From a virus: DNA of 54,539 nt. The notes under the pieces are model-generated. The model searched no databases. It was not told where the DNA came from and saw only the letters and a program-made list of their open reading frames with translations. This document shows, one piece after another, positions 2,992-30,269 of the stretch. The first letter of the stretch is position 1. The number at the start of each line of letters is the position of its first letter. Position numbers and translations under genes: made by a program. The stretch lies in IMG/VR virus record IMGVR_UViG_3300042368_000323, positions 1-54,539 of that record; one strand, written 5' to 3'.

Positions 2992-3006
2992 GGGGGCTGT
3001 GCCCCC
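2992..3006 (+). other. Intergenic hairpin 5
   Basis: GGGGGC-TGT-GCCCCC, a perfect 6-bp GC stem upstream of the DUF3150-like gene, followed by its GAGAGAGGT ribosome site. Confidence 0.65.
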
Positions 3007-3026: not shown

Positions 3027-3959
3027 ATGATCGACATCACCACCGCCGCCATGCTCGGCAGCCTCAACATCAGCGTGTGGGAAGCACGCATTCAAGACAA
3101 GCGCACCAAGGACGAGGTGCTCGCCAACAAGGGTGCCAAGTCCAAGAAAGCAGCGAGTGTCTCGAAGAACCTGTTCAGCGAGTGTCCCGAGCTGGAGGCG
3201 ATCAAGGCCTTGCGCAGCGAGGCCCGTGTCTGGTTCAACTCCCACACCTTGCCGTGGGATGACAACGGAAACAGGCTGATCACCACGAGGCAGTACCTCG
3301 ACGTCGTGGGCAAGGCGGCGGAGTACGAAACCAAGTTCGACGGGTTGGTGCGGGCCTTCGTGTCCGCCTATGGCACAGCCATCAGCAAGCAGGCCTTCGA
3401 GATGGGCTCGCTCTTCGATCGTAGTGAGTACCCGCTGGCCGACGAGGTGGCGGCGAAGTTCCGCTTCGGGCTATCCCTCAGCCCACTGCCTTCGTCGGGG
3501 GACTTTCGGGTGGACATCGGCCACGAGGCACAGCGTCAGCTTGCCGAGCAGTACGAGAAGGCCACCGCCGAGCGTGTGGCCGGTGCTGTGCAGGATACGT
3601 GGAACAGGGTGCGAGACCAAGTCTCTTGGGTGCGGGAGAGGATGACCGCCGTGCTTGAGTACAACCCCGACGAGGTCGAGGAGGTCCCCACGACTGACGA
3701 CACCGGCACGGTGGTGTCGGTGGAGATTAAAAAGCGTCGTCGCCCGAAGCTCTACGACAGCATGTTGGAGCAGGGCCTTGAGCTGTGCAAGATGTTGAGT
3801 GATCTCAACGTCACCAACGACCCGCGCCTTGAGGAAGCGCGGCGTGATCTGGAGCGGGCGCTGACCCGCGTCGACATGGACTCGCTGAAGGAGAGCCCTG
3901 AACTGCAACGGGCCACGAAGCAGGCGATGGACGACATCCTCGACAAGTTCTCGTTGTGA
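3027..3959 (+). CDS. DUF3150-like protein of a MoxR-VWA module
   Basis: A 310-residue soluble, largely helical protein. ATG 3027 is chosen because GAGAGAGGTAACC precedes it; the frame is open further upstream but overlaps the previous gene. Length, helical content and position directly before a MoxR/CobS-like ATPase and an HExxH-VWA protein match the DUF3150 family, which typically occurs in that gene trio on plasmids, ICEs and phages. The C-terminal region (residues about 205-310) carries a KKRRRPK basic patch and amphipathic helices. The biochemical role of DUF3150 is unknown. A substrate or adaptor role for the ATPase is inferred from context. Family assignment is by resemblance only. Confidence 0.65.
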   Translation: MIDITTAAMLGSLNISVWEARIQDKRTKDEVLANKGAKSKKAASVSKNLFSECPELEAIKALRSEARVWFNSHTLPWDDNGNRLITTRQYLDVVGKAAEYETKFDGLVRAFVSAYGTAISKQAFEMGSLFDRSEYPLADEVAAKFRFGLSLSPLPSSGDFRVDIGHEAQRQLAEQYEKATAERVAGAVQDTWNRVRDQVSWVRERMTAVLEYNPDEVEEVPTTDDTGTVVSVEIKKRRRPKLYDSMLEQGLELCKMLSDLNVTNDPRLEEARRDLERALTRVDMDSLKESPELQRATKQAMDDILDKFSL

Positions 3960-3964
3960 CCCCC

Positions 3965-3978
3965 GGGGCTTCGGCCCC
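3965..3978 (+). other. Intergenic hairpin 6 with UUCG tetraloop
   Basis: GGGGC-TTCG-GCCCC forms a 5-bp stem closed by a C(UUCG)G tetraloop, an exceptionally stable RNA hairpin. It lies between the DUF3150-like and AAA+ genes and is followed at once by palindrome copy 5. Confidence 0.7.
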
Positions 3979-3991
3979 TTTATCAGTAAAT
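3979..3991 (+). repeat. Palindromic repeat, copy 5
   Basis: TTTATCAGTAAAT is an imperfect copy of the TTTAC-yr-GTAAA motif, located between the hairpin at 3965-3978 and the ribosome site of the AAA+ gene. Confidence 0.6.
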
Positions 3992-4011
3992 CAATCTCTA
4001 GGAAACACATC

Positions 4012-5058
4012 ATGAAACTCAGCATCAACCAATGCGCCGCCGCTATCAACGCCGTCGGCCAGCACACCACCGTGCTCATCGAGGGTCCCTCGGGCTCGGG
4101 CAAGTCTTCGATCCTCGGCATGCTCAACCTGCCGACGCACCGCAAGGTCTACATCGACTGCACCCAGATCGACGTGGGTGACATCCAGATCCCGAGCGTG
4201 AACCACGCCACGGGGACCAGCACCTTCTATCCAAACGAGGTGTTCGGTGTGCATGGCGAGCAGCCCGTCGTCATCTGCCTGGATGAGTTTGGCAAGGCTC
4301 CGAGGTCAGTTCAGAATGCCCTCCTCCCTGTCGTGCTGGATCGCCGTGTCGGTACCCGCCCGCTTCCCGCTGGCTCGGTGGTGTTCGCAACCACCAACCT
4401 CAGCTCCGAGGGCGTGGGTGACACGCTCCAGCTCCACGTCCGCAACCGCATGTCGGTGATCGCGATGCGCAAGCCCACCGTCGAGGAGTACATCAACTAC
4501 TCGCTGGCAAACGACGGCAACCCTGCCGTGCTGGCGTGGGTGCAGGAGACGCCGCAGACCTTGGCCGACGACGACACCGTGGCCAACCCGGACCAGAACC
4601 CCTACATCTGGCACCGCAAGGACCCGAGCCGCAAGGCCTTCTGCTCTCCGCGCAGCATGACCGCTGCCGGTCGCGTGCTCAACGACGCCGAGCACCTCGA
4701 CGACGACACCATGCGGGGCCTGCTCGCTGGCCTGATCGGCGCTCGCTCCGCCGCTGACCTGCATGTGTTCGTGCAGATGGGCAACAAGCTGCCCTCATGG
4801 AAGGCCATCGTGACGAGCCCGCTCCAAGCCCCGGTGCCTGACACGCCGACGATGTGCATGATGCTGGTGCACCGTGCGATCACTCGCACCACAGAGGACA
4901 CGCTCGACCCGGTGATGGTGTACATGAAGCGCTTGCCGATGGAGCTGCAAGCAGTGTTCGTCAACCAGTTCCTGCGTATCCCGCAGCGTGCCAAGTTCGC
5001 TGCATTCAACAAGCCATTCACCAACTGGTGCATGGCTAACAACTGGATCATGGGCTGA
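4012..5058 (+). CDS. MoxR/CobS-like AAA+ ATPase
   Basis: A 348-residue AAA+ ATPase. Visible motifs: Walker A GPSGSGKS (residues 25-32), Walker B ICLDE (D91, E92) and a sensor-1 Asn in ATTN (N129). Length and arrangement match MoxR/CobS-type ATPases, which act as oligomeric remodelling machines with a VWA-domain partner, here encoded immediately downstream. In cobaltochelatase the pair inserts Co2+, but in RavA-ViaA and MoxR systems it remodels protein complexes. No cobalamin genes are present, so protein remodelling is the better guess. N4-like phages also carry an adjacent AAA-VWA pair. Cytoplasmic. Confidence 0.88.
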   Translation: MKLSINQCAAAINAVGQHTTVLIEGPSGSGKSSILGMLNLPTHRKVYIDCTQIDVGDIQIPSVNHATGTSTFYPNEVFGVHGEQPVVICLDEFGKAPRSVQNALLPVVLDRRVGTRPLPAGSVVFATTNLSSEGVGDTLQLHVRNRMSVIAMRKPTVEEYINYSLANDGNPAVLAWVQETPQTLADDDTVANPDQNPYIWHRKDPSRKAFCSPRSMTAAGRVLNDAEHLDDDTMRGLLAGLIGARSAADLHVFVQMGNKLPSWKAIVTSPLQAPVPDTPTMCMMLVHRAITRTTEDTLDPVMVYMKRLPMELQAVFVNQFLRIPQRAKFAAFNKPFTNWCMANNWIMG

Positions 5059-5074
5059 CAACCCACCACAACCC

Positions 5075-5090
5075 GCCCCCTCACGGGGGC
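5075..5090 (+). other. Intergenic hairpin 7
   Basis: GCCCCC-TCAC-GGGGGC, a perfect 6-bp GC stem between the AAA+ and VWA genes, followed by the GAAGGAG ribosome site of the VWA gene. Confidence 0.65.
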
Positions 5091-5106
5091 TCCGAAGGAG
5101 AACCAC

Positions 5107-6324
5107 ATGAATCTGACAGCAGAAGAGCGCATCACCAAGGCCCGTAGCAAGATCATGCGCGACGAGCGCTTCACCGCCATCTCACCGATCCTGATGATCG
5201 GTTCGTGGCAAGTGGTAGACGACATCCCGACAGCGGCAACCAACGGGCGTGATGTCTTCTATGGCCGGAAGTTCATCAACCAGTGCGACGACAGACTGCT
5301 GCGCTTCGTCGTCTTGCACGAATACTTCCACGTTATGCTCATGCACATGACGACGTGGGCCAAGCTCGACAAGGAAGACGCGCAACTGTCCAACATTGCC
5401 AAGGACATGGTGATCAACAACATGCTCAAGGCGATGGACCCGGGCGGGCAGTTCATCACCATCTGGGAGAACGCGTACTGTGACCCGCAGTACGATGGGC
5501 TCGACACCGGTGAGGTGTACAAGCGGCTCAAACAACAGGCCCAGTCCAAGCCGCAAGGCGGCGGGGGCAAGGAGGACAACGGCCCCAAGGGTCAACAGTT
5601 CGACCAGCACCAGCCTGCGGCGGGCGATGGGGACGGCGAGGGTGACGGCGAGGGTGACGGACCCGCACCCCTGACTCAGGCCGAGGCCGAGGAGGTGGCC
5701 AAGGCGGTCGACAACGCGCTGCGCCAAGGGGCGCTGATCGCAGGCAAGACGGGTGCTGGCATGTCCCGGGACATTGCGTCTCTCCTTGAGCCTGTGGTGC
5801 CTTGGCAGGACGTGCTGCGTGACTGGCTGACCAACACCGCCAAGGGCGGCGACCTGTCGACGTGGGCTCGGCCCGCTCGACGCTGGCTCGGGCAGGATCT
5901 CTACCTGCCATCACGGTACACAGAAGCGGTCGACCGCATCGTCATCGGCATAGACACCAGCGGCTCCATCGACGACGAGCAACTTCGACGTGCACTGAGC
6001 GAGGTCGCCAGTGCCTGCGAGGCCGTCTCTCCACAGATGGTCGACGTGATCTACTGGGACTGGGCAGTCGCAGCACACGAGTCCTACGAGGGCGAGCGGG
6101 TGCAGGACATCGTCAAGGCGACGAAGCCCAAGGGTGGCGGGGGTACCGACGTGCGGACCCTGTTCAACTTCATCGACCAGCGGGGGCTGAACCCCAACGC
6201 GGTGATCGTCTTCACCGATGGCTACACGCCGTGGCCTGCGGACCTCAAGCACCCGACGCTGTGGTGCATCAGCACCAAGGGGCTCCGCGCCCCGGTGGGG
6301 GAGACGCTGTATGTCCCAGCCTGA
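5107..6324 (+). CDS. Putative metallopeptidase with C-terminal VWA-like domain
   Basis: A 405-residue protein of the type with an N-terminal metallopeptidase-like domain and a C-terminal VWA-like domain (PF13203/PF09967-like). The zinc motif HEYFH is at residues 71-75. An acidic, Gln/Gly/Asp-rich linker (about 145-190) follows. The VWA-like domain shows a MIDAS signature: DTSGS (283-287), Thr-Asp in GGTD (347-348) and an FTDG strand, so it probably binds Mg2+. It is the expected partner of the AAA+ ATPase upstream, which would remodel a client recruited by the MIDAS. Whether the HExxH site is proteolytic is unknown. All key residues are intact. Confidence 0.85.
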   Translation: MNLTAEERITKARSKIMRDERFTAISPILMIGSWQVVDDIPTAATNGRDVFYGRKFINQCDDRLLRFVVLHEYFHVMLMHMTTWAKLDKEDAQLSNIAKDMVINNMLKAMDPGGQFITIWENAYCDPQYDGLDTGEVYKRLKQQAQSKPQGGGGKEDNGPKGQQFDQHQPAAGDGDGEGDGEGDGPAPLTQAEAEEVAKAVDNALRQGALIAGKTGAGMSRDIASLLEPVVPWQDVLRDWLTNTAKGGDLSTWARPARRWLGQDLYLPSRYTEAVDRIVIGIDTSGSIDDEQLRRALSEVASACEAVSPQMVDVIYWDWAVAAHESYEGERVQDIVKATKPKGGGGTDVRTLFNFIDQRGLNPNAVIVFTDGYTPWPADLKHPTLWCISTKGLRAPVGETLYVPA

Positions 6325-6592
6325 TGGGCCCGTCCCCGGGCTCCGCCCCGGGCGGGAGTGGGCGCTCATAAGCCGCGCTCGCCCACGGAAGTACGGGTTG
6401 TTTGAATACCACAAAGCACCGGATGGTATTGAAGAGGGTAAGTGGCTGGCGACGTTGACACACTCTGGCTTTCTCGACGGCTGGTTTGTGTCAGCGTTCT
6501 TGAACGGCGGCGTTCAATGGCAAGTCAGACTCAGAGAGTCTGACGATCCACCCTTTGAGTTAGCGGAGGTACTTTATGACGCAGTGTGTTGA
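6311..6592 (+). CDS. Tandem paralogue 1 of four (LAExLYDA family)
   Basis: A 93-residue protein of unknown function, first of four adjacent related genes sharing a C-terminal signature PPF-x-LAE-x-LYDA. It starts at ATG 6311 inside the end of the VWA gene (14-nt overlap) with GGGGGAGA upstream. Its C-terminal codons for AEVLYD contain the GCGGAGG ribosome site of the next gene, which begins 17 nt before this stop. Central region is aromatic and beta-like. No homologous family is recognised. Confidence 0.75.
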   Translation: MSQPDGPVPGLRPGREWALISRARPRKYGLFEYHKAPDGIEEGKWLATLTHSGFLDGWFVSAFLNGGVQWQVRLRESDDPPFELAEVLYDAVC

Positions 6593-6863
6593 GGTGCCCA
6601 AGCCCCTCGGTGAGGGCCGAAGCTGGCACCCTGTCGAGGACAAGCTCGTTGAAGCCTACAGCCTGTACGTACCCTACACCATGCCGGAGGGATACAGCAC
6701 GATCAAACGACGGGCGACGCTGTCACGTATTTGGGGCGAGCCCGGGTGGACTCTCACTACAACACCGCGCTGGCCCTTTGACATGACGTCCCAGATGAAA
6801 CTCCCACCAAGCCCCAACCCACCGTTCCAATTAGCGGAGGCACTGTATGACGCTGCTAAGTGA
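6576..6863 (+). CDS. Tandem paralogue 2 of four
   Basis: A 95-residue protein ending PPFQLAEALYDAAK, clearly related at its C-terminus to its three neighbours, while the N-terminal and central parts are strongly diverged. It overlaps the previous gene by 17 nt and the next by 17 nt. Soluble, function unknown. Confidence 0.75.
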   Translation: MTQCVEVPKPLGEGRSWHPVEDKLVEAYSLYVPYTMPEGYSTIKRRATLSRIWGEPGWTLTTTPRWPFDMTSQMKLPPSPNPPFQLAEALYDAAK

Positions 6864-6866
6864 CAC
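6834..6866 (+). repeat. 33-nt junction repeat, copy 1
   Basis: A 33-nt block beginning GCGGAGGCACTG and ending GTGACAC is identical to 7102-7134. It holds the end of one paralogue, the ribosome site and ATG of the next, and both reading frames. Confidence 0.9.
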
Positions 6867-7131
6867 GATACCAGCGCTCCGATCCAACAGGTATTGGAGA
6901 GAGGACAATGGGGCTTTTACCCTTTACGAGGTAAGGCCCACCATTTGGTCAAGTGAGATACGCAAGGCTCTGGATACACGCTCTTTGCTGGCTATATACA
7001 GGTCAGGAGGCCAAGCATGGATAGCAATAAGTTTTCAAAGAGACAGGACTGAAGACCGCTGGTCTATAAAACTTGAATCCATTGACCCGCCCCTAGGGGC
7101 GGCGGAGGCACTGTATGACGCTGCTAAGTGA
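6847..7131 (+). CDS. Tandem paralogue 3 of four
   Basis: A 94-residue protein starting MTLLSDT and ending AEALYDAAK. Its first seven residues are identical to those of paralogue 4, since both starts lie in the identical 33-nt junction repeat. More AT-rich in the middle than its neighbours. Function unknown. Confidence 0.75.
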   Translation: MTLLSDTIPALRSNRYWREDNGAFTLYEVRPTIWSSEIRKALDTRSLLAIYRSGGQAWIAISFQRDRTEDRWSIKLESIDPPLGAAEALYDAAK

Positions 7132-7134
7132 CAC
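7102..7134 (+). repeat. 33-nt junction repeat, copy 2
   Basis: Identical to 6834-6866, 268 nt downstream. It marks the junction between paralogues 3 and 4 and suggests recent duplication or gene conversion of the array. Confidence 0.9.
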
Positions 7135-7369
7135 ACTAAGACCCAACAGACTCTGGGTCGACTTCGGAGGTGCAGGCCTGCTGGTCTACGTACTGCGAGA
7201 GTCGGTAGACGGAGGACCCTACAGAATGATTGCCGAGATCAGTAGGAAAGCAAACACACCGTGGAAGGTAGAGGCAATACTACCCAACAACACGTTGTGG
7301 CAAACGACCATCGACGTCGAAGCACCGCCGTTCAAGGTGGTCGAGGCGTTGTATGACGCGGCGCGTTGA
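7115..7369 (+). CDS. Tandem paralogue 4 of four
   Basis: An 84-residue protein starting MTLLSDT and ending PPFKVVEALYDAAR. Its end again contains an ATG (7353) in the same 17-nt overlap geometry. That ATG opens a frame continuing into the next gene at 7428, as if a fifth member had been replaced by an unrelated gene. Confidence 0.75.
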   Translation: MTLLSDTLRPNRLWVDFGGAGLLVYVLRESVDGGPYRMIAEISRKANTPWKVEAILPNNTLWQTTIDVEAPPFKVVEALYDAAR

Positions 7370-22563: not shown

Positions 22564-22598
22564 GCCCCGGGTTGAGCTTGCTCCTCGGGGCACTTTTT
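22564..22598 (+). terminator. Rho-independent terminator at the convergence
   Basis: GCCCCG/CGGGGC enclosing GAGC-tt-GCTC, followed by CACTTTTTAT. It ends rightward transcription. The leftward polyvalent-protein gene stops within the T-run (22597-22599), so the two transcription units meet here. Confidence 0.8.
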
Positions 22599-25500
22599 AT
22601 CTCGACGCGTCCATCGTCCGCTGCTCCTCGGTCACCTGACGACGCAGTCGGTACACATCCCGAGCCAGATCGTTCTGTTGAGCGCGTAGGTCGTTGATGA
22701 TCACGCGCCGTTCTTCAGGTGACAGGTCCGTCATCTTGTCGATGGCCCGGGCCTGAGCGTTCAAAGCGCGGATTGCCTCCATCGTGCTACGCACCTCACT
22801 ACGCACCACGTACAAGCCGAAGTTGTCCTTGAGGAACTTCTCTGCGTCGTCAGGGTTGTTCTCCAGCTTGCGCCTGTACGAGTTGTAGACCTGCTCGACA
22901 GACCTGTCGAGGTTGTAGATCTCGTCGAGGTAGCGCATGCCGACCGGGTCCTTCATCACAGCCGAGGCACCTGTGAGCTGAGCCGCAATCGTCTGGTGCA
23001 GGGGGCGGTCAGTCCGCGTGGGGTTCACCATGACATCAGCAACGCTCAAGGCGATACCTGCGGACATACCGAACATGCCGCGCACCAAGTTCTCCAGCAT
23101 GATCGGAGAGACCTTCAGAGCCTCAACCCCTGTCGACGTGGCGATGTCAGTCAAGGTTCTGGACGCAGCCTTCATGGCTTCTGAAGTGCCGGTACCGTAG
23201 CGCTCGGACGGGTCGAGGGCCAACTGCGCCTGAGACTCCAGTGGGCGTCCAAGGAAGAACGAGTAGTTGGCGAGGTTCTCAAGGATAGGCTTCAGGACCT
23301 GCGGGGTGATGTTCGGTGCCGAGAAGATGTCGACACCGTTGAGCATCAGTTCCTTCAGCACCCGCATCGCGTCGCGCTCCTCGGGAGTACCTTGGAGCTT
23401 GAAGTACTGCACCACCCGTTCAGGGATAGCCTTGAAGAAGAACGACAGTTCCGCAGGCAGCGGGACAGCGGGCACGAAGCCAAGCTCCTTGCCACCCGGG
23501 ATGACCCAGTTCCGGTCGCGGACGTAGTCGGGTAGGTTCTGGTACTCCTCGTCGTCCGACATCATCAGCGCGTAGCCGAAGCCCATCGCCGTGAGCACCC
23601 CCATCCGCTTGTAGAACAGGTTGCGTGCGTAGCCCGTCGTCGCGCCGATGCTGCGCTGGGCGCTCGGGTTGCCTGCCGCTGCGAGTAGGAGCTTGTCCAT
23701 CGAGCGGGCGTAGGCGTTGAAGAACGGGATGGTGCGGATGAGGTAGTCAGCGGTCTTCGACACACCTCTGCGGCTGAAGTTGATGATCTCCCGGGCGCGT
23801 AGTTCAGCCAGTGCCCGGTCACCGGTCTCCTTCAGCGTCTGGTTGTAGATCGCCTCACGCACGGCGACGTCCGAGGCCTTGGCACCGGCCTCCATGATGC
23901 GCAGGATGGCCTTGCCGACGGAGCGCGGCGCGAGCCCCGTCTCCTCCAAGATGTTCTTCACATTGCCACCGATGATGGTGTCATAGGCAGGCACCACACC
24001 TGACTTGGCGAGTTCCCTGACACCGGCGGACTGTGTCCCCTTGATCTCGTTCCACCAATTTCGAGGGAAGTTCAGCAAGATGCGGGGGAGCATCGCAGTG
24101 GGGTTCTTGACTCCCGAGTGCACATACGCCCGGGTGATGTCATCAAAGACCTGTTTTACAGCGAAGGGCGGTGTAGCGGTCACGCCGATACGCAAGAACT
24201 GCGAGAACTTCTGTGCCCCTCGGATAAACGCGGGTACATCTGTTGTCGGTGCACCAATGAACGCTGCGAGATTGGCAGGGTCCGGGACGTAGAAGACTTT
24301 CTTCTGTCCGTTGACGTAGGTGTCAACGAGCGCACCCTGCTTATTGTTGTCGATAGCGTCACGGTTAGGGACAAACTGCGCGTAGCCAAGCAGCTCCATC
24401 TCAGGCAGCGCACGACCAACTGCATCTGCCTTCATCGACTCATTGACCATCCAGTCCATGAGCTTCGAGAAGTTCTCAACAGGGTTTTGTGTCTGACGGT
24501 CTTGAGAGCCTTTGTACTTCGCAATCTCCTTGAACGCAGCCAGCTTCGCGTTGGAGCCTCCACCCTGCGGAAGTGCCAGATTGTCGAAGTCATCAATCCG
24601 GGAGAACGGGACGTAACCTATCGCATCCTTCCACACTTGGGCTTTGGCTGGCGTGATGCGGCCAGCCTCAACCATTGCGTCGATCATAGCGAAGCGGATC
24701 TGGTCCAGCTTCTCACTCACTCCCTTGATGAACGCGTCAGACTGGAAAGTTTGCTCTGCTGTTGCAGCCTCTTGGGGAGTCAAGAAGAAGTCGAGCCCAG
24801 CGGCCTGCGGAGAGTTCATCAACTCGTATTCGCGATGCGAAGCCAGTGATTCCCCAACTTGATTCTTGAACGTTTCAGGTGCGATACCCCGTGTCTTAGC
24901 CTCAGCAGCGATGTCTTTGAGCACCTGCTTATAGCTGATGTCCTCACCCTTATAGTTCAGCGTCTCGACACTGAGCAGTCCGGTGGGGTCACGGCGCATA
25001 GTGCCGTACTCTTTCACCTCGCTGGCAAAACGCGGCGCATCCAGTGCCCGAGACATGAGGAACACCGGGTTGTAGTCCCCTCGGTTGTCACGGATGCGGT
25101 TGCCGTAGGCCTTGGTGAAGATGTAGTCGACGCCCGCCAGCAGGTCCATCGCCTGTGCACGGAAGCCGATGGCTTTGTTGCCACCGAACTTGGCGTCGAG
25201 TTTGTTCTTCAGCGTGCGCTCTTCCTTCTCTCCGACGAGATCTGGTGTAGTCTCAGGAGAGAGATCGAAGTACTCCGTTTCAGGTGCAGTAGGTGTAGTA
25301 CTTGCAGGGGCGGGGGACTTACTTGCCGCGTCAGCGGCGTCCTTCAACTTCTTGAGTTCTTCTGCTGTGAAAAGATTGCCAGTATAACCGCGAATGTCTA
25401 AGCCGGTATATCTTGAGTCTTTCACACCGAGATAGATAGGGTTACCCTTTGAGTTGCGGCCTTCAATCAAGCCTATATTGCTTGATGGTCCGTCAATCCA

Positions 25501-28500
25501 AACCGGTTTCATCCCAAAACGAAGTATCCATGACGGGAAACCAGTCGTGTTCGCCTGCCTACCAAACGACTGGTACTTCTTGTTCGCCTCTTCAATGTGG
25601 CCTACGAGGGACTCATCAAGTACGTTTTCGGAGATGGTCATCAACTCGGCAAGTGCCGAAGTTTCTTTCCCTTTCAGCTTGAGTACTTCAGATATAAGTT
25701 TGAAGAACCTGCCAAGGAAAGTGCCACCAGTTGGGCTGGGTGTAGATGCAAGCCAATTCTGGAAATCAGCGTTGACCAATCCGTAGGTTATCAACTCTTT
25801 TGAGTTTTCTAGCGCGGCGGCGAACAGACGTTTTTGCCCCAACTCGAAGAGACCGTTTTTGTCCTGTTCTTTGAACTTAGAGACAAGTTCTTTATGGAGC
25901 GCGTTCAGTTTTATTGCCGCAGAACTTTGCGGCGCGTAGTTGATCTGTGCAACAGTAACCGCGTGAATCAGCTCATGTACAAGCGTTTCTTGTCTAAGAG
26001 TGTTCTCCGCAAAAGAGGTGTACCCGTTAATGGTGACTTCTACTTTTGTAGATTCTCCAAGACCACCAACACGCGTAGTCGCTACACCACGTGCACCCTT
26101 GAGCACCGCCCCGGGGTCAGTCAAGCGGAACGAGAACTCGACGCCCATGTTCGTCAGTTCTTCAACACGGCGCTTTACCTTGACCATGACTGCACGGTCA
26201 AGAACATCACGTGCGTTCAGAATGGCGTAGTCGACAACTTCATCAAACGTTGCGCCACGTAGAGCGGCATCCATCTCCTTCGAGTTACGCAGGTCTGCCT
26301 GTTCAAATCGTGTTTGCGTGTACTGGGGCCTTGGCAGTGTTCTGGACGCGGGAGCCGGAGCAGGCGCAGGTGGCTTAGGAGCCGGAGCAGGCGCAGGTGG
26401 CTTAGGAGCCGGAGCAGGCGCAGGTGGCTTAGGAGCCGGAGCAGGCGCAGGTGGCTTAGGAGCCGGAGCAACACGAGTCATCTCCGCCCATTGCGCTTTT
26501 TTAGCTTCGATTTGTCGCCCTAGCTCATCCCACTTTTTGCGTGCAGGTGACTTAGCCGCAGGTGCACGTCCAGCCTTAGTCAGCAGTGCCTGCTGTTGTC
26601 TCTTTAACTCTCGAATCTCATCCATCAAAGCGTCAGATTCAGGGGTATTCCTCCCACTGACAGACGGTGTAGGAGCCGCAGGGGGCGGAGCAGGTGTAGG
26701 AGCCGCAGGAGGCGGAGCAGGTGTAGGAGCCGCAGGGGCTGGCGTCTCTACCTTAGCGTACTTGGCAAGCAGATCAAGTGCAGCTTGAATGCTCTTGGTT
26801 GCGCTCTTGACCCGGTTCCCATCTGGTTCGGTATGTTGCGCGTAGAACGCGTCGTACTCGTCCTGGGGGATGCTCCCAGACACTTGCTCAATCTGCTCGA
26901 TCAGATCTGCACGTTCAGCCGGAGTGCGCTTGGCAGGTTTGGGCGTCGGTGCTACTGCAACGGGCTCGCCTGTTTCTCCGCCAGCAGGCTGTCCAGCATC
27001 CTCGACAGGAGGAACCAATCCGCTTGGCTCAGGGGCTCCAGCCCCTTCGGTGGGGGTGACGGCAGCGGGTCCGCCAGCCACTGGAGCGCCTGCTCCACTT
27101 GGTTGTTCGACAGGTTCGACAGCACTTGGAGTCTCCGGTTCGGGCACCGCAGGTGCCGGGGTGGGCACCGCAGGTGCCGGGGTAGGTTCAGCCGCCACGG
27201 GCGGCGCGGCGGGTTCGACGGCGGGTGCCGTAGGTACCGCAGGCTCAGGCAACCGCGCCAAGAAGGCGTCGATCTTGGCTTCAGTCTTCGGGTTCAGCGT
27301 CCCCTCTTGTCGCTTGGCGTCGAGGTACGTCTGCAAGACGTCACGGACTTCGGGGTCAGCCGGTGCCTTACCGACCAGCATGTTGTGGATCGAACCGCGA
27401 GTGAACCCGATCTTGGCAACCGTCGCGCTGTCAAGCACGTCAGGCAGGGGCGCAGGGGCACCCACCTTGCGGACTTTGGGCTCTTCGACAGGCGGGGCTT
27501 CCGTTGTGGGTGCCGTAGGCGGCGTCCACCGACCTCCACCGACCTCGACCAGACGGGCATCAAGCTCATCGAACTTCCGACGCGCAGGGCTCTTCGGTGC
27601 CGGGGGCTTGCCATTGACCAGCATGTCCTCACGCTGCTGACGCAGGCGAGCAATCTCTTCGCGACGTGCTTGGGTAGGATCGAACTCCTCGCGGGGCGTC
27701 ACAGCCGCTACGGCTGCTTCATCAGCAGGAAGGAACCTGTCCGCACCCCGCTTGTTGGCTACACGTTGCTCGACATCTTCGCGCTGCCTGCGTGCACGCT
27801 CGGCTTCCAAAGCCTTGAGCGCCTCGTTGCGCTGGTTGGTAGGGCGCTCCTGTTTCAGCGTCTCAATCGCCTGCGTCAGCTTTGGGTAAGCCTCGTTGAT
27901 GGGCAACCCCAGCGTCTCGTCAATCGTGGATTGGGCAGTGTTGGCCGGTGCCGCTTTCGCCGCCTCCGCCGCCTGACGCTCGGCCTCTCGCTTGGCCTTG
28001 ACCACGTCGATCTCGGTCTGGCCTTCGGGCGGCACCGGTTCACCAGTACCCGCACCCCGGGCTCGACGACCCAAAGCGAGGTCAAAGAGACCCTGTGCCA
28101 GACCACCCACGGCACCGCCGTAAGCCGCCTGCTCACCAAGGCCCTCGATGAGTTCCTGCTCGGGCTTGTAGACGCCCCGGGCAATCATGTTCTGGGCAAG
28201 GCCTGACGCGGCCTCCTGAGCGGCTTCCTCGCCGCTTGCGATGGCGATCCGCTTGATGCGGTCGACCGCCGTCAGAACCTCACCTTCCGGCACGCGCTTG
28301 AGAATGCGGAACGGCGCGAAGACCTCCAAGGCCCCCGGCAAGGTGCCCAGCGCGGTCGCTGTGGAACGCTGCTCTTCAGTGGCACCCTCGGTCTCGGCTC
28401 GCGTCCGCGCCTCGCCTGCACCGGCTCCAACGCCAAGACCTACGGCAGCGGTCCTACCCGCAAGGCCCAAGGGGCCAAGGCCCAAGAACGGTACCGTTGA

Positions 28501-28854
28501 GCCAACCGCTTCACCGAACTTGCGCCCAACCGTGCCCTCATACCCCGGAGCCGGGGCGAAGGGTGCCTTGGCAGCGCCAGCCACCTGGGCGATAGTCTCT
28601 CGGGCAGCGCGTTCTTGCTCCTCCGGCAGGAGGGCTGAGGCACCGATGGCAGCTTGCTCTACGAGCCCAACCGCACCGGGAATGACACCCTTGAAGGCTT
28701 CGCCTACTTGGCCTAAAAAACTCGTCTCAGGGGCCTGCCCTGCTTCAGGCGATTGCGCCAGCACCGCCTGAATGACTTGTTCCTGTGTCGCACCCGGTGG
28801 CCCCTCGATCTCATAAGTCTTACCGTTGGGGGCCGAGATGCGATAGGTCGTCAT
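22597..28854 (-). CDS. Giant polyvalent virion protein with metalloprotease motif
   Basis: A 2085-residue protein, last gene of the late operon. N-terminus TTYRISAPNGKTYEIEGPPG is a domain often starting phage ejection proteins, followed by Ala/Gly-rich hydrophobic stretches (about 45-190), Pro/Ala-rich linkers with 27-bp repeats, an HExxH zinc-metallopeptidase motif HELIH (960-964), and a long C-terminal region with IPFFNAYARSMDKLL resembling large-polyvalent-protein (LPD38-like) domains. Probably an internal protein injected with the DNA; the protease could act on host targets or the wall. ATG 28854 overlaps the preceding stop (ATGA); an upstream GTG at 28881 is less likely. Confidence 0.8.
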   Translation of the reverse strand: MTTYRISAPNGKTYEIEGPPGATQEQVIQAVLAQSPEAGQAPETSFLGQVGEAFKGVIPGAVGLVEQAAIGASALLPEEQERAARETIAQVAGAAKAPFAPAPGYEGTVGRKFGEAVGSTVPFLGLGPLGLAGRTAAVGLGVGAGAGEARTRAETEGATEEQRSTATALGTLPGALEVFAPFRILKRVPEGEVLTAVDRIKRIAIASGEEAAQEAASGLAQNMIARGVYKPEQELIEGLGEQAAYGGAVGGLAQGLFDLALGRRARGAGTGEPVPPEGQTEIDVVKAKREAERQAAEAAKAAPANTAQSTIDETLGLPINEAYPKLTQAIETLKQERPTNQRNEALKALEAERARRQREDVEQRVANKRGADRFLPADEAAVAAVTPREEFDPTQARREEIARLRQQREDMLVNGKPPAPKSPARRKFDELDARLVEVGGGRWTPPTAPTTEAPPVEEPKVRKVGAPAPLPDVLDSATVAKIGFTRGSIHNMLVGKAPADPEVRDVLQTYLDAKRQEGTLNPKTEAKIDAFLARLPEPAVPTAPAVEPAAPPVAAEPTPAPAVPTPAPAVPEPETPSAVEPVEQPSGAGAPVAGGPAAVTPTEGAGAPEPSGLVPPVEDAGQPAGGETGEPVAVAPTPKPAKRTPAERADLIEQIEQVSGSIPQDEYDAFYAQHTEPDGNRVKSATKSIQAALDLLAKYAKVETPAPAAPTPAPPPAAPTPAPPPAAPTPSVSGRNTPESDALMDEIRELKRQQQALLTKAGRAPAAKSPARKKWDELGRQIEAKKAQWAEMTRVAPAPKPPAPAPAPKPPAPAPAPKPPAPAPAPKPPAPAPAPASRTLPRPQYTQTRFEQADLRNSKEMDAALRGATFDEVVDYAILNARDVLDRAVMVKVKRRVEELTNMGVEFSFRLTDPGAVLKGARGVATTRVGGLGESTKVEVTINGYTSFAENTLRQETLVHELIHAVTVAQINYAPQSSAAIKLNALHKELVSKFKEQDKNGLFELGQKRLFAAALENSKELITYGLVNADFQNWLASTPSPTGGTFLGRFFKLISEVLKLKGKETSALAELMTISENVLDESLVGHIEEANKKYQSFGRQANTTGFPSWILRFGMKPVWIDGPSSNIGLIEGRNSKGNPIYLGVKDSRYTGLDIRGYTGNLFTAEELKKLKDAADAASKSPAPASTTPTAPETEYFDLSPETTPDLVGEKEERTLKNKLDAKFGGNKAIGFRAQAMDLLAGVDYIFTKAYGNRIRDNRGDYNPVFLMSRALDAPRFASEVKEYGTMRRDPTGLLSVETLNYKGEDISYKQVLKDIAAEAKTRGIAPETFKNQVGESLASHREYELMNSPQAAGLDFFLTPQEAATAEQTFQSDAFIKGVSEKLDQIRFAMIDAMVEAGRITPAKAQVWKDAIGYVPFSRIDDFDNLALPQGGGSNAKLAAFKEIAKYKGSQDRQTQNPVENFSKLMDWMVNESMKADAVGRALPEMELLGYAQFVPNRDAIDNNKQGALVDTYVNGQKKVFYVPDPANLAAFIGAPTTDVPAFIRGAQKFSQFLRIGVTATPPFAVKQVFDDITRAYVHSGVKNPTAMLPRILLNFPRNWWNEIKGTQSAGVRELAKSGVVPAYDTIIGGNVKNILEETGLAPRSVGKAILRIMEAGAKASDVAVREAIYNQTLKETGDRALAELRAREIINFSRRGVSKTADYLIRTIPFFNAYARSMDKLLLAAAGNPSAQRSIGATTGYARNLFYKRMGVLTAMGFGYALMMSDDEEYQNLPDYVRDRNWVIPGGKELGFVPAVPLPAELSFFFKAIPERVVQYFKLQGTPEERDAMRVLKELMLNGVDIFSAPNITPQVLKPILENLANYSFFLGRPLESQAQLALDPSERYGTGTSEAMKAASRTLTDIATSTGVEALKVSPIMLENLVRGMFGMSAGIALSVADVMVNPTRTDRPLHQTIAAQLTGASAVMKDPVGMRYLDEIYNLDRSVEQVYNSYRRKLENNPDDAEKFLKDNFGLYVVRSEVRSTMEAIRALNAQARAIDKMTDLSPEERRVIINDLRAQQNDLARDVYRLRRQVTEEQRTMDASR
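26351..26475 (-). repeat. 27-bp coding repeat, four copies plus partial
   Basis: A 27-bp unit (ends 26377, 26404, 26431, 26458, then a 17-bp partial) repeats almost perfectly inside the polyvalent gene and encodes the nine-residue APAPKPPAP linker. Units are in frame, so copy number can change without frameshift. Not CRISPR: no spacers. Confidence 0.9.
26666..26740 (-). repeat. Second 27-bp coding repeat, about three copies
   Basis: Units at 26666-26692 and 26693-26719 differ at one base, with a partial third. They encode APTPAPPPA linkers in the same protein as the repeat at 26351. Confidence 0.85.
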
Positions 28855-30269
28855 GGGTTCACTACTGTTGCTTGACCCCACCCTGCGGTGGTAGCGCCCG
28901 GGGCCGCACTGGCTTGACCGGAGGTTGAGAAGTATCCTACCACCTGTTCTCGCGTAACGCCAAGAGGGGCGACTTGCGTAGCGACTGCGTCGATCTGCTG
29001 ATCAATCAAACGCTGCCTTGCAGAGCCCTTAAGACTCGAAGGTATAGGATTCTTACTCTGTACATCCGCGATAGCTCTGCGAACTAAGCTATCTTTTTGG
29101 AAGTCTGATCTCCCAGCGGTAGCTTCACCCCTGTTAGCCGCAGCAGTAGCTGCCGCGTTGGCGGTGGTTTGTTTGATCTCCAACTCAGTATACTTCTCGT
29201 TCATAGCAGCGCGAATTTCCGCCGCCTTGAGCTTCGCCCGTTGTTCACCCTCGGTGTCCTTCTCCGCACGTGCCAGACGTGCTTCAGCTTCTGCTCTGGC
29301 GAGTTCCTGACGGAGTTTGACGAGGTTGGCTTGCGCTTCCCTACGCCCCTTCTGCTGACCTGCACGGGCTTTGACCAAACCAGTGGCAGCGCCCATCAGC
29401 GTGTCACCAAGTCGATCTGTACCTCTCATGCCCTCAAGGATTGCAGCCATGAGTTCGGGGTTCTCAAAAGCGTTCTGCTCTTGTTGCGCTTCAAGTTCCC
29501 GCATCTGCTGTTCCGCAGGGTCCATCGACGCTTTCAGCATCGCGTCATAGGCTTGGCGTGCTTCAAGGACTCGGGGGTCTACCGCTGCGGTACCCTCAAC
29601 GCCCTTTGCCAACTGCTCGGACATCCGAAGGTATTCCGCCAGACCACCCCTCTGCGGTGCGGCAGCATCACCAGCACCACCAACACCGGCACCGGTACCA
29701 GCAGTGCGGGCGGCAGGAGGACGAGCAGGGGGGCGAGCCACAGGAGCCGCAGCGGCAGCGGCGGCAGCGGCAAGGCCAGCGGGAGCCGCGAAAGTAGGCG
29801 GACGGTTAGAGTCTCGATAGGCCCGCTCCAATGCCGCTGCTTCCCTTGAAGCTGCACGTTCTTGCGCTCCGGGACGTTCACGAGATTGCGGGACGTTACC
29901 TCCGAAAAACTCTACGATGTAGTCAGCAAGGGGCCTGTCAAACAGCCCTTCCGCCACGAGGTCTTCATCAAGACCTTCAAGGTCAGCTTCCGCCAGACCA
30001 CCCTTATCGAACGCCACCATCCCACCACTGGCCATCCCTGGCACCGGCTGTTGTGCCTGTGCCTGCTGAAGTGCCATCTTCAACTGGTCATAGATGGTAG
30101 GCGACATCTGCTGCGCCTGCGACATCGCCTGCTGACCCTGAGCAGCGCGTTCGAGGTTCGCTGTCTTGACAGCCTCATTCAGCGCAAGCAGTTGTTGGAA
30201 CGGCTGCGGTTGAGACGCCATCGGATTGGGGTTACGGGGGGCGATAGCCCCAAGTCCAGCGTTCATCAT
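28851..30269 (-). CDS. Putative internal/ejection virion protein
   Basis: A 472-residue protein rich in Gln, Ala and charged residues. Near residue 80 is the segment MASGGMVAFDKGGLAEADLE, typical of phage internal virion proteins. The centre (about 300-400) is a long coiled coil (LVKLRQELARAEAEARLARAEKDTEGEQRAKLKAAEIRAAMNEKYTELE). Candidate starts are GTG 30275 (overlaps the preceding stop) and ATG 30269, preferred because GGGAAG precedes it. It is translated just ahead of the giant polyvalent protein. Confidence 0.7.
   Translation of the reverse strand: MMNAGLGAIAPRNPNPMASQPQPFQQLLALNEAVKTANLERAAQGQQAMSQAQQMSPTIYDQLKMALQQAQAQQPVPGMASGGMVAFDKGGLAEADLEGLDEDLVAEGLFDRPLADYIVEFFGGNVPQSRERPGAQERAASREAAALERAYRDSNRPPTFAAPAGLAAAAAAAAAPVARPPARPPAARTAGTGAGVGGAGDAAAPQRGGLAEYLRMSEQLAKGVEGTAAVDPRVLEARQAYDAMLKASMDPAEQQMRELEAQQEQNAFENPELMAAILEGMRGTDRLGDTLMGAATGLVKARAGQQKGRREAQANLVKLRQELARAEAEARLARAEKDTEGEQRAKLKAAEIRAAMNEKYTELEIKQTTANAAATAAANRGEATAGRSDFQKDSLVRRAIADVQSKNPIPSSLKGSARQRLIDQQIDAVATQVAPLGVTREQVVGYFSTSGQASAAPGATTAGWGQATVVNP

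Follow-up and report, generated by a model that had tools for sequence, protein, structure and literature searches.

The three-gene locus and its protein families

The DNA analyzed here (hereafter the window) comprises 54,539 nt, positions 1 to 54,539 of the IMG/VR virus record IMGVR_UViG_3300042368_000323, which is shorter than its relatives (60–67 kb) and may be incomplete. Three consecutive, intact open reading frames (ORFs) on its + strand encode a DUF3150 family protein of 310 aa (3027..3959), a MoxR/Midasin-like AAA+ ATPase of 348 aa (4012..5058) and a DUF2201 protein of 405 aa (5107..6324) that joins a zincin-like metallopeptidase domain to a VWA domain. The ORFs are separated by gaps of 52 and 48 bases, and each is preceded by a Shine-Dalgarno-like sequence. 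An earlier, sequence-only reading had drawn attention to this gene set (hereafter the trio) as a possible module for protein remodeling, and its observation of the three genes is confirmed here with the correction of one residue.

The family of the ATPase is clear from profile matches to AAA_5 (E = 1.4e-5) and to phrog_1297 (E = 1.7e-49), and from its best solved relative, Midasin (E = 4e-23). The Walker A motif GPSGSGKS (residues 25–32; 4084..4107, + strand), the Walker B pair D91-E92 (4282..4287, +) and the sensor 1 residue N129 (4396..4398, +) lie where the sequence-only reading had placed them. All three elements are intact and a VWA partner gene is linked, as expected for a MoxR AAA+ protein. 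Residues G28, G30, K31 and E92 are invariant in the ATPases of trio-bearing phages (65/65), and N129 is invariant in all 127 ATPases compared.

In the 405-aa protein both DUF2201_N (E = 4.4e-31) and the DUF2201 VWA-like domain (E = 2.2e-18) exceed their curated cut-offs, giving a layout of N-terminal zincin-like metallopeptidase, low-complexity linker (about 150–190) and C-terminal VWA domain. The predicted zinc site HEYFH (71–75; 5317..5331, +) is intact, with H71, E72 and H75 present in 70/70 trio-phage sequences, and the zincin domain may act as a peptidase. Residues D100 and N104 are likewise invariant in these 70 sequences, and D100 (5404..5406, +), which the model places on the next helix, is our candidate for the third metal ligand, with H80 as the alternative. 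The metal-ion-dependent adhesion site (MIDAS) of the VWA domain begins with DTSGS (283–287; 5953..5967, +), whose D283, S285 and S287 are found in 132/132 VWA sequences. Both motifs were already recognized in the sequence-only reading, which completed the MIDAS with the pair TD at 347–348. The threonine of that pair is near-invariant (T347; 6145..6147, +; T in 130/132 and S in 2), but position 348 varies among D, T, R and S, and the closing aspartate is most likely D371 (6217..6219, +), aligned with D in 132/132 sequences. Because a few plasmid VWA proteins lose HExxH yet keep the MIDAS, the predicted gripping site appears from the alignments to be under stricter conservation than the predicted cutting site. 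Structural matches to the VWA model include the MDN1-MIDAS/UBL complex and NorQD. The name “HNH endonuclease”, borne by phrog_1314 and by many RefSeq phage records of this family, e.g., N4 gp25 (L005 5999–7141), is rejected as an annotation error, as no HNH domain was found in the window member.

The identity of the first gene is less direct. The 310-aa protein gives no Pfam match to PF11348 even at E ≤ 1, and a six-frame search of the window likewise gives no PF11348 hit. However, 44 of its 55 aligned relatives match PF11348 (best E = 2.3e-10), and one of them, the L137 protein, exceeds the curated cut-off while sharing 35% identity with the window protein over 305 positions (E = 6e-70). An AlphaFold2 model of the 310-aa protein (predicted local distance difference test score, pLDDT, 82.7) is mostly helical with two long helices (87–129 and 166–210), and its best viral match is the model of a “DUF3150 domain-containing protein” (E = 8e-19, template modeling scores 0.77/0.81). 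Among solved structures, a sequence search with DUF3150 returned helical-bundle noise only and a fold search with the model returned nothing below E = 0.001. Since the relatives match PF11348 and the model matches the DUF3150 fold, the concern that structure prediction might place the first gene in an unrelated fold falls away, and the “DUF3150-like” label of the sequence-only reading can be replaced by a DUF3150 assignment via relatives and predicted fold.

Co-inheritance and genome position of the trio

As a DNA-level search for trio-bearing phages found nothing, protein searches were adopted. Scanning IMG/VR with a DUF3150 alignment uncovered no fewer than 587 relatives. Eighty of them were retained, and profiles for the three proteins were run over their loci. 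The loci reduce to 54 representatives under 90% identity; coming from one scan they are related, and the counts below are not counts of independent events. All three genes lie on one strand in 46 of the 54 distinct loci, in several gene orders (with A for the ATPase, V for VWA and D for DUF3150: A-V-D 20, D-A-V 17, A-D-V 7, V-A-D 2). Seven of the eight loci lacking a full trio are short or cut contigs, and the eighth is Tunturi_3. According to the tree topology, at least four order changes occurred within one phage clade while the genes still remained together. The three proteins also agree in their pairwise distances (correlations of 0.89–0.94), though shared ancestry alone would give a similar correlation. 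In the ATPase tree the trio ATPases group apart from those of phages that carry only the ATPase-VWA pair, with moderate support (84/74, and 86% of bootstrap trees), while the deepest branches of the VWA tree are not resolved.

The trio is also found outside phages, as the sequence-only reading had stated for plasmids. It occurs contiguously and on one strand on plasmids of Burkholderiales and of other bacteria, with the fixed order A-D-V in nearly all of 57 bacterial loci (plasmid or genome, mostly Burkholderiales). Its plasmid neighbors include primase, RecT, PRTRC or type IV secretion genes, and further RadC, DUF4942 and a DNA methyltransferase. In the plasmid and genome ATPases, Asp occupies the position of the catalytic Glu of Walker B in 54 of 56 sequences (loci L053–L056 and L138–L193), whereas the phage ATPases all have Glu. 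The SXT genes s065 and s066, which we considered as a literature mention of the module, are Bet/Exo recombination genes. With the three genes on one strand in 46/54 loci and contiguous on plasmids, the trio is one inherited unit, in agreement with the module idea.

The AAA-VWA pair said to occur in N4-like phages was also found, and profile checks of the pair-only phages revealed no hidden DUF3150; N4 gp30, a candidate for such a protein, does not align with DUF3150. In two phage contigs a gene of about 310 aa sits between the ATPase and VWA genes (L048 7078–8007 and L050 7066–8007). Profile comparison ruled it out as DUF3150, and it is perhaps a different third partner.

With strand position taken as a proxy for expression time, the module appears to belong to the early, replication-related part of the genome. 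The VWA gene and the DNA polymerase A gene share a strand in 15/15 genomes (14 long-contig relatives plus the window), with the module about 5–10 kb upstream of the polymerase in all 15 once contigs starting inside the early region are allowed for, and the gene of virion protein phrog_3287 lies on the opposite strand in 14/14 (13 relatives plus the window). A second scan, seeded with the polymerase, yielded 17 loci that extend 8 kb or more upstream. In 16 of these, genes of the module lie on the polymerase strand (the full set in ten, the rest being cut by the locus edge), so that the module is close to constant in its clade and can be regarded as a core early phage module. Four other phages with related virion or polymerase genes differ. 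None of the three profiles gave a hit in DSL-LC04 (whole genome searched), HTVC023P (48 of 61 kb searched) or CRP-902 (96% searched), each of which has a homologue of the window phage's virion protein, nor in KPP25 (whole genome searched), which has its polymerase in common with the window phage.

Several features surround the trio in the window. The two gaps between its ORFs each contain a GC-rich hairpin read from the sequence, GGGGC-TTCG-GCCCC between the DUF3150 and ATPase genes (3965..3978, +) and GCCCCC-TCAC-GGGGGC between the ATPase and VWA genes (5075..5090, +). Such short hairpins recur in the intergenic gaps of the early region (also at 2992–3006, 1589–1602 and 2286–2301), often just 5' of the ribosome-binding site, and terminator-like sites are more numerous than in shuffled sequence (15 vs. 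4.4 expected). Upstream of the early cluster there is a near-perfect extended −10 sigma-70 promoter (TTGACA-17-TATACT, 250–278). Straight after the VWA gene, four small tandem paralogues (6311–7369), each with a start overlapping the preceding stop by ~16 bases, have a common C-terminus, PP(F/L)xxxExLYDA(A/V), and variable middles. In the nearest relatives this position holds between one and several copies, and the proteins may interact with the module as partners or be its substrates. Farther away, a 2094-aa protein on the − strand (22597–28881) contains LPD38, a large polyvalent protein domain (E = 1e-33), and part of it matches phrog_2206, the family of the N4 virion RNA polymerase (E = 2.6e-13); it may be an injected protein.

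Proposed mechanism and competing explanations

We consider it probable, though well short of certain, that the trio encodes one ATP-driven protein-remodeling machine acting inside the cell early in infection. The MoxR/Midasin-like ATPase would assemble as a ring and supply the drive, and the DUF2201 protein would dock on this ring with the metal site of its VWA domain holding an acidic residue of the target. ATP hydrolysis would then pull on or remodel the target, which the zincin domain on the same polypeptide may cut. This division of labor is analogous to that of NorQ/NorD, where both ATP hydrolysis and the MIDAS are required, the authors attributing target binding to the latter (PMC9976466). 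Across the loci examined the helical DUF3150 protein is hardly ever met without the ATPase-VWA pair, and its probable role is that of a dedicated adaptor or specificity subunit. As the most likely target we envisage a DNA-bound protein complex, or some other complex of the host, whose removal would let the phage or a newly arrived plasmid begin replicating. The early position of the module, its near-constancy and the placement of plasmid copies beside replication and conjugation genes together point to work inside the cell at the start of infection or plasmid establishment, rather than to the building of virions. A remodeling role in the cell was also the best guess of the sequence-only reading, and the Midasin- and NorQD-like matches, the early position and the plasmid copies support it as such.

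Some observations weigh against this interpretation. The replacement of the catalytic Glu by Asp in 54/56 plasmid ATPases and the absence of HExxH from some plasmid copies suggest that hydrolysis and proteolysis may not matter equally everywhere. Rhizobium phage RHph_TM3_14A has the ATPase and VWA genes without DUF3150, as do the N4-like phages, and in the Tunturi_3 genome DUF3150 stands without a clear ATPase or VWA partner (a marginal ATPase match at E = 0.017), so the third component can be dispensed with in some cases. In the VWA model, which is short, there is no obvious counterpart of the pore-entering finger proposed for NorD, and thus docking on the ATPase may differ from that of NorD. 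Finally, the ATPase gene of PA5oct is noted “ESI-MS/MS” in its record, which could mean presence in particles.

The last point would suit a role in virion assembly, in which the ATPase and VWA-peptidase act as a chaperone-protease that remodels and trims structural proteins, by analogy with the MoxR-VWA system of Acidianus two-tailed virus. A published proposal already gives the pair such a part in the jumbo phages of group 2.2 (PMC7824862), and a roseophage has an extra structural gene module beside its homologues of N4 gp24/gp25 (PMC4193335). For the trio this explanation seems quite improbable given gene position and plasmid occurrence: the module is on the replication strand in 15/15 genomes and opposite the virion gene in 14/14, and it is also carried by plasmids, which make no virions. 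In addition, DSL-LC04 and, over the portions searched, HTVC023P and CRP-902 keep the virion-protein homologue with no module hit. A counter-defence role, which the sequence-only reading had held possible, would have the machine dismantle or cleave a host defence complex and thereby shield incoming phage or plasmid DNA. The sharing of the trio by phages and conjugative plasmids, its location among small early ORFs, the lack of it in some related phages, and the RadC, DUF4942 and DNA methyltransferase genes near plasmid copies are all in keeping with such a role. Yet genes of this type are usually patchy, while the module is near-constant in the replication-strand region of its clade (16/17 polymerase-seeded loci), which makes an accessory anti-defence role less likely. 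The ATPase-VWA pair is moreover core in N4-like phages (PMC4193335; PMC7650795), and no defence model matched above chance, in a library that covers defence and not counter-defence. We therefore regard counter-defence as unlikely, and in this respect the sequence-only reading is only partly supported, while its module, DUF3150, plasmid trio and N4 pair have held.

The motor and adaptor subunits of metal chelatases resemble a MoxR-VWA pairing, which would favor a CobS/CobT-like chelatase or cobalamin enzyme. This seems extremely improbable here, as no CobN-type catalytic subunit was found in the window (in a possibly incomplete record, ORFs longer than 900 aa match DUF927, LPD38 or nothing) and the VWA protein bears a zincin domain. 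The VMAP ternary conflict system (PMC7159879) was also considered and rejected, since the third component here is DUF3150 and neither Pfam nor PADLOC gave a match to such a system.

Relation to known systems and significance

The pairing of the ATPase with the VWA protein is itself already known. In group 2.2 jumbo phages a MoxR AAA+ ATPase and a metallopeptidase-vWA protein have been described (PMC7824862), and both systems thus have an ATPase with a zincin-fused VWA. The accessible part of that description gives no DUF3150 partner and proposes virion assembly, whereas the genes here sit in the replication-strand region of phages of roughly 60–67 kb. Another phage counterpart is N4 gp24/gp25, core genes of the N4-like group (Schitoviridae; PMC4193335; PMC7650795) and middle genes in N4 (PMC4193335), which are a homologous, adjacent ATPase and VWA-peptidase. 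They differ in that no DUF3150 was detected near them and that the trio ATPases form their own tree group (84/74). The plasmid trio shares all three homologous proteins, contiguous and on one strand, but differs from the phage trio in its fixed A-D-V order, its Walker B Asp (54/56) and the loss of the zinc site in a few copies. NorQ/NorD and Midasin likewise combine a MoxR-type AAA+ motor with a MIDAS target-gripping domain, with other targets, no fused peptidase and no DUF3150, and the window VWA shows no evident NorD-like finger.

What appears to be new is the conserved third subunit, DUF3150, and with it the three-part set as a core early phage module. DUF3150 is absent from the literature searched, where subscription journals are scarcely covered, so that an earlier description elsewhere is possible. 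A bolder and tentative extension of the remodeling machine proposed above is that phages and conjugative plasmids share a three-subunit “grip, pull and cut” machine constituting a new type of AAA+ protease, in which cutter and gripper would lie on one polypeptide and DUF3150 would serve as adaptor in clearing a host or DNA-bound complex at the start of replication.

A family absent from the literature searched is thus a fixed part of a module that a large phage clade has retained and that plasmids also carry. The presence of an ATPase-VWA pair in the N4 core opens the module question to testing in a laboratory phage; the CRISPRi-ART paper, in the accessible part of its main text, reports tests of the N4 rII genes and does not report N4 gp24/gp25. 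Should the machine indeed remove an obstacle that the host sets to replication, lytic phages and conjugative plasmids would have this function in common.

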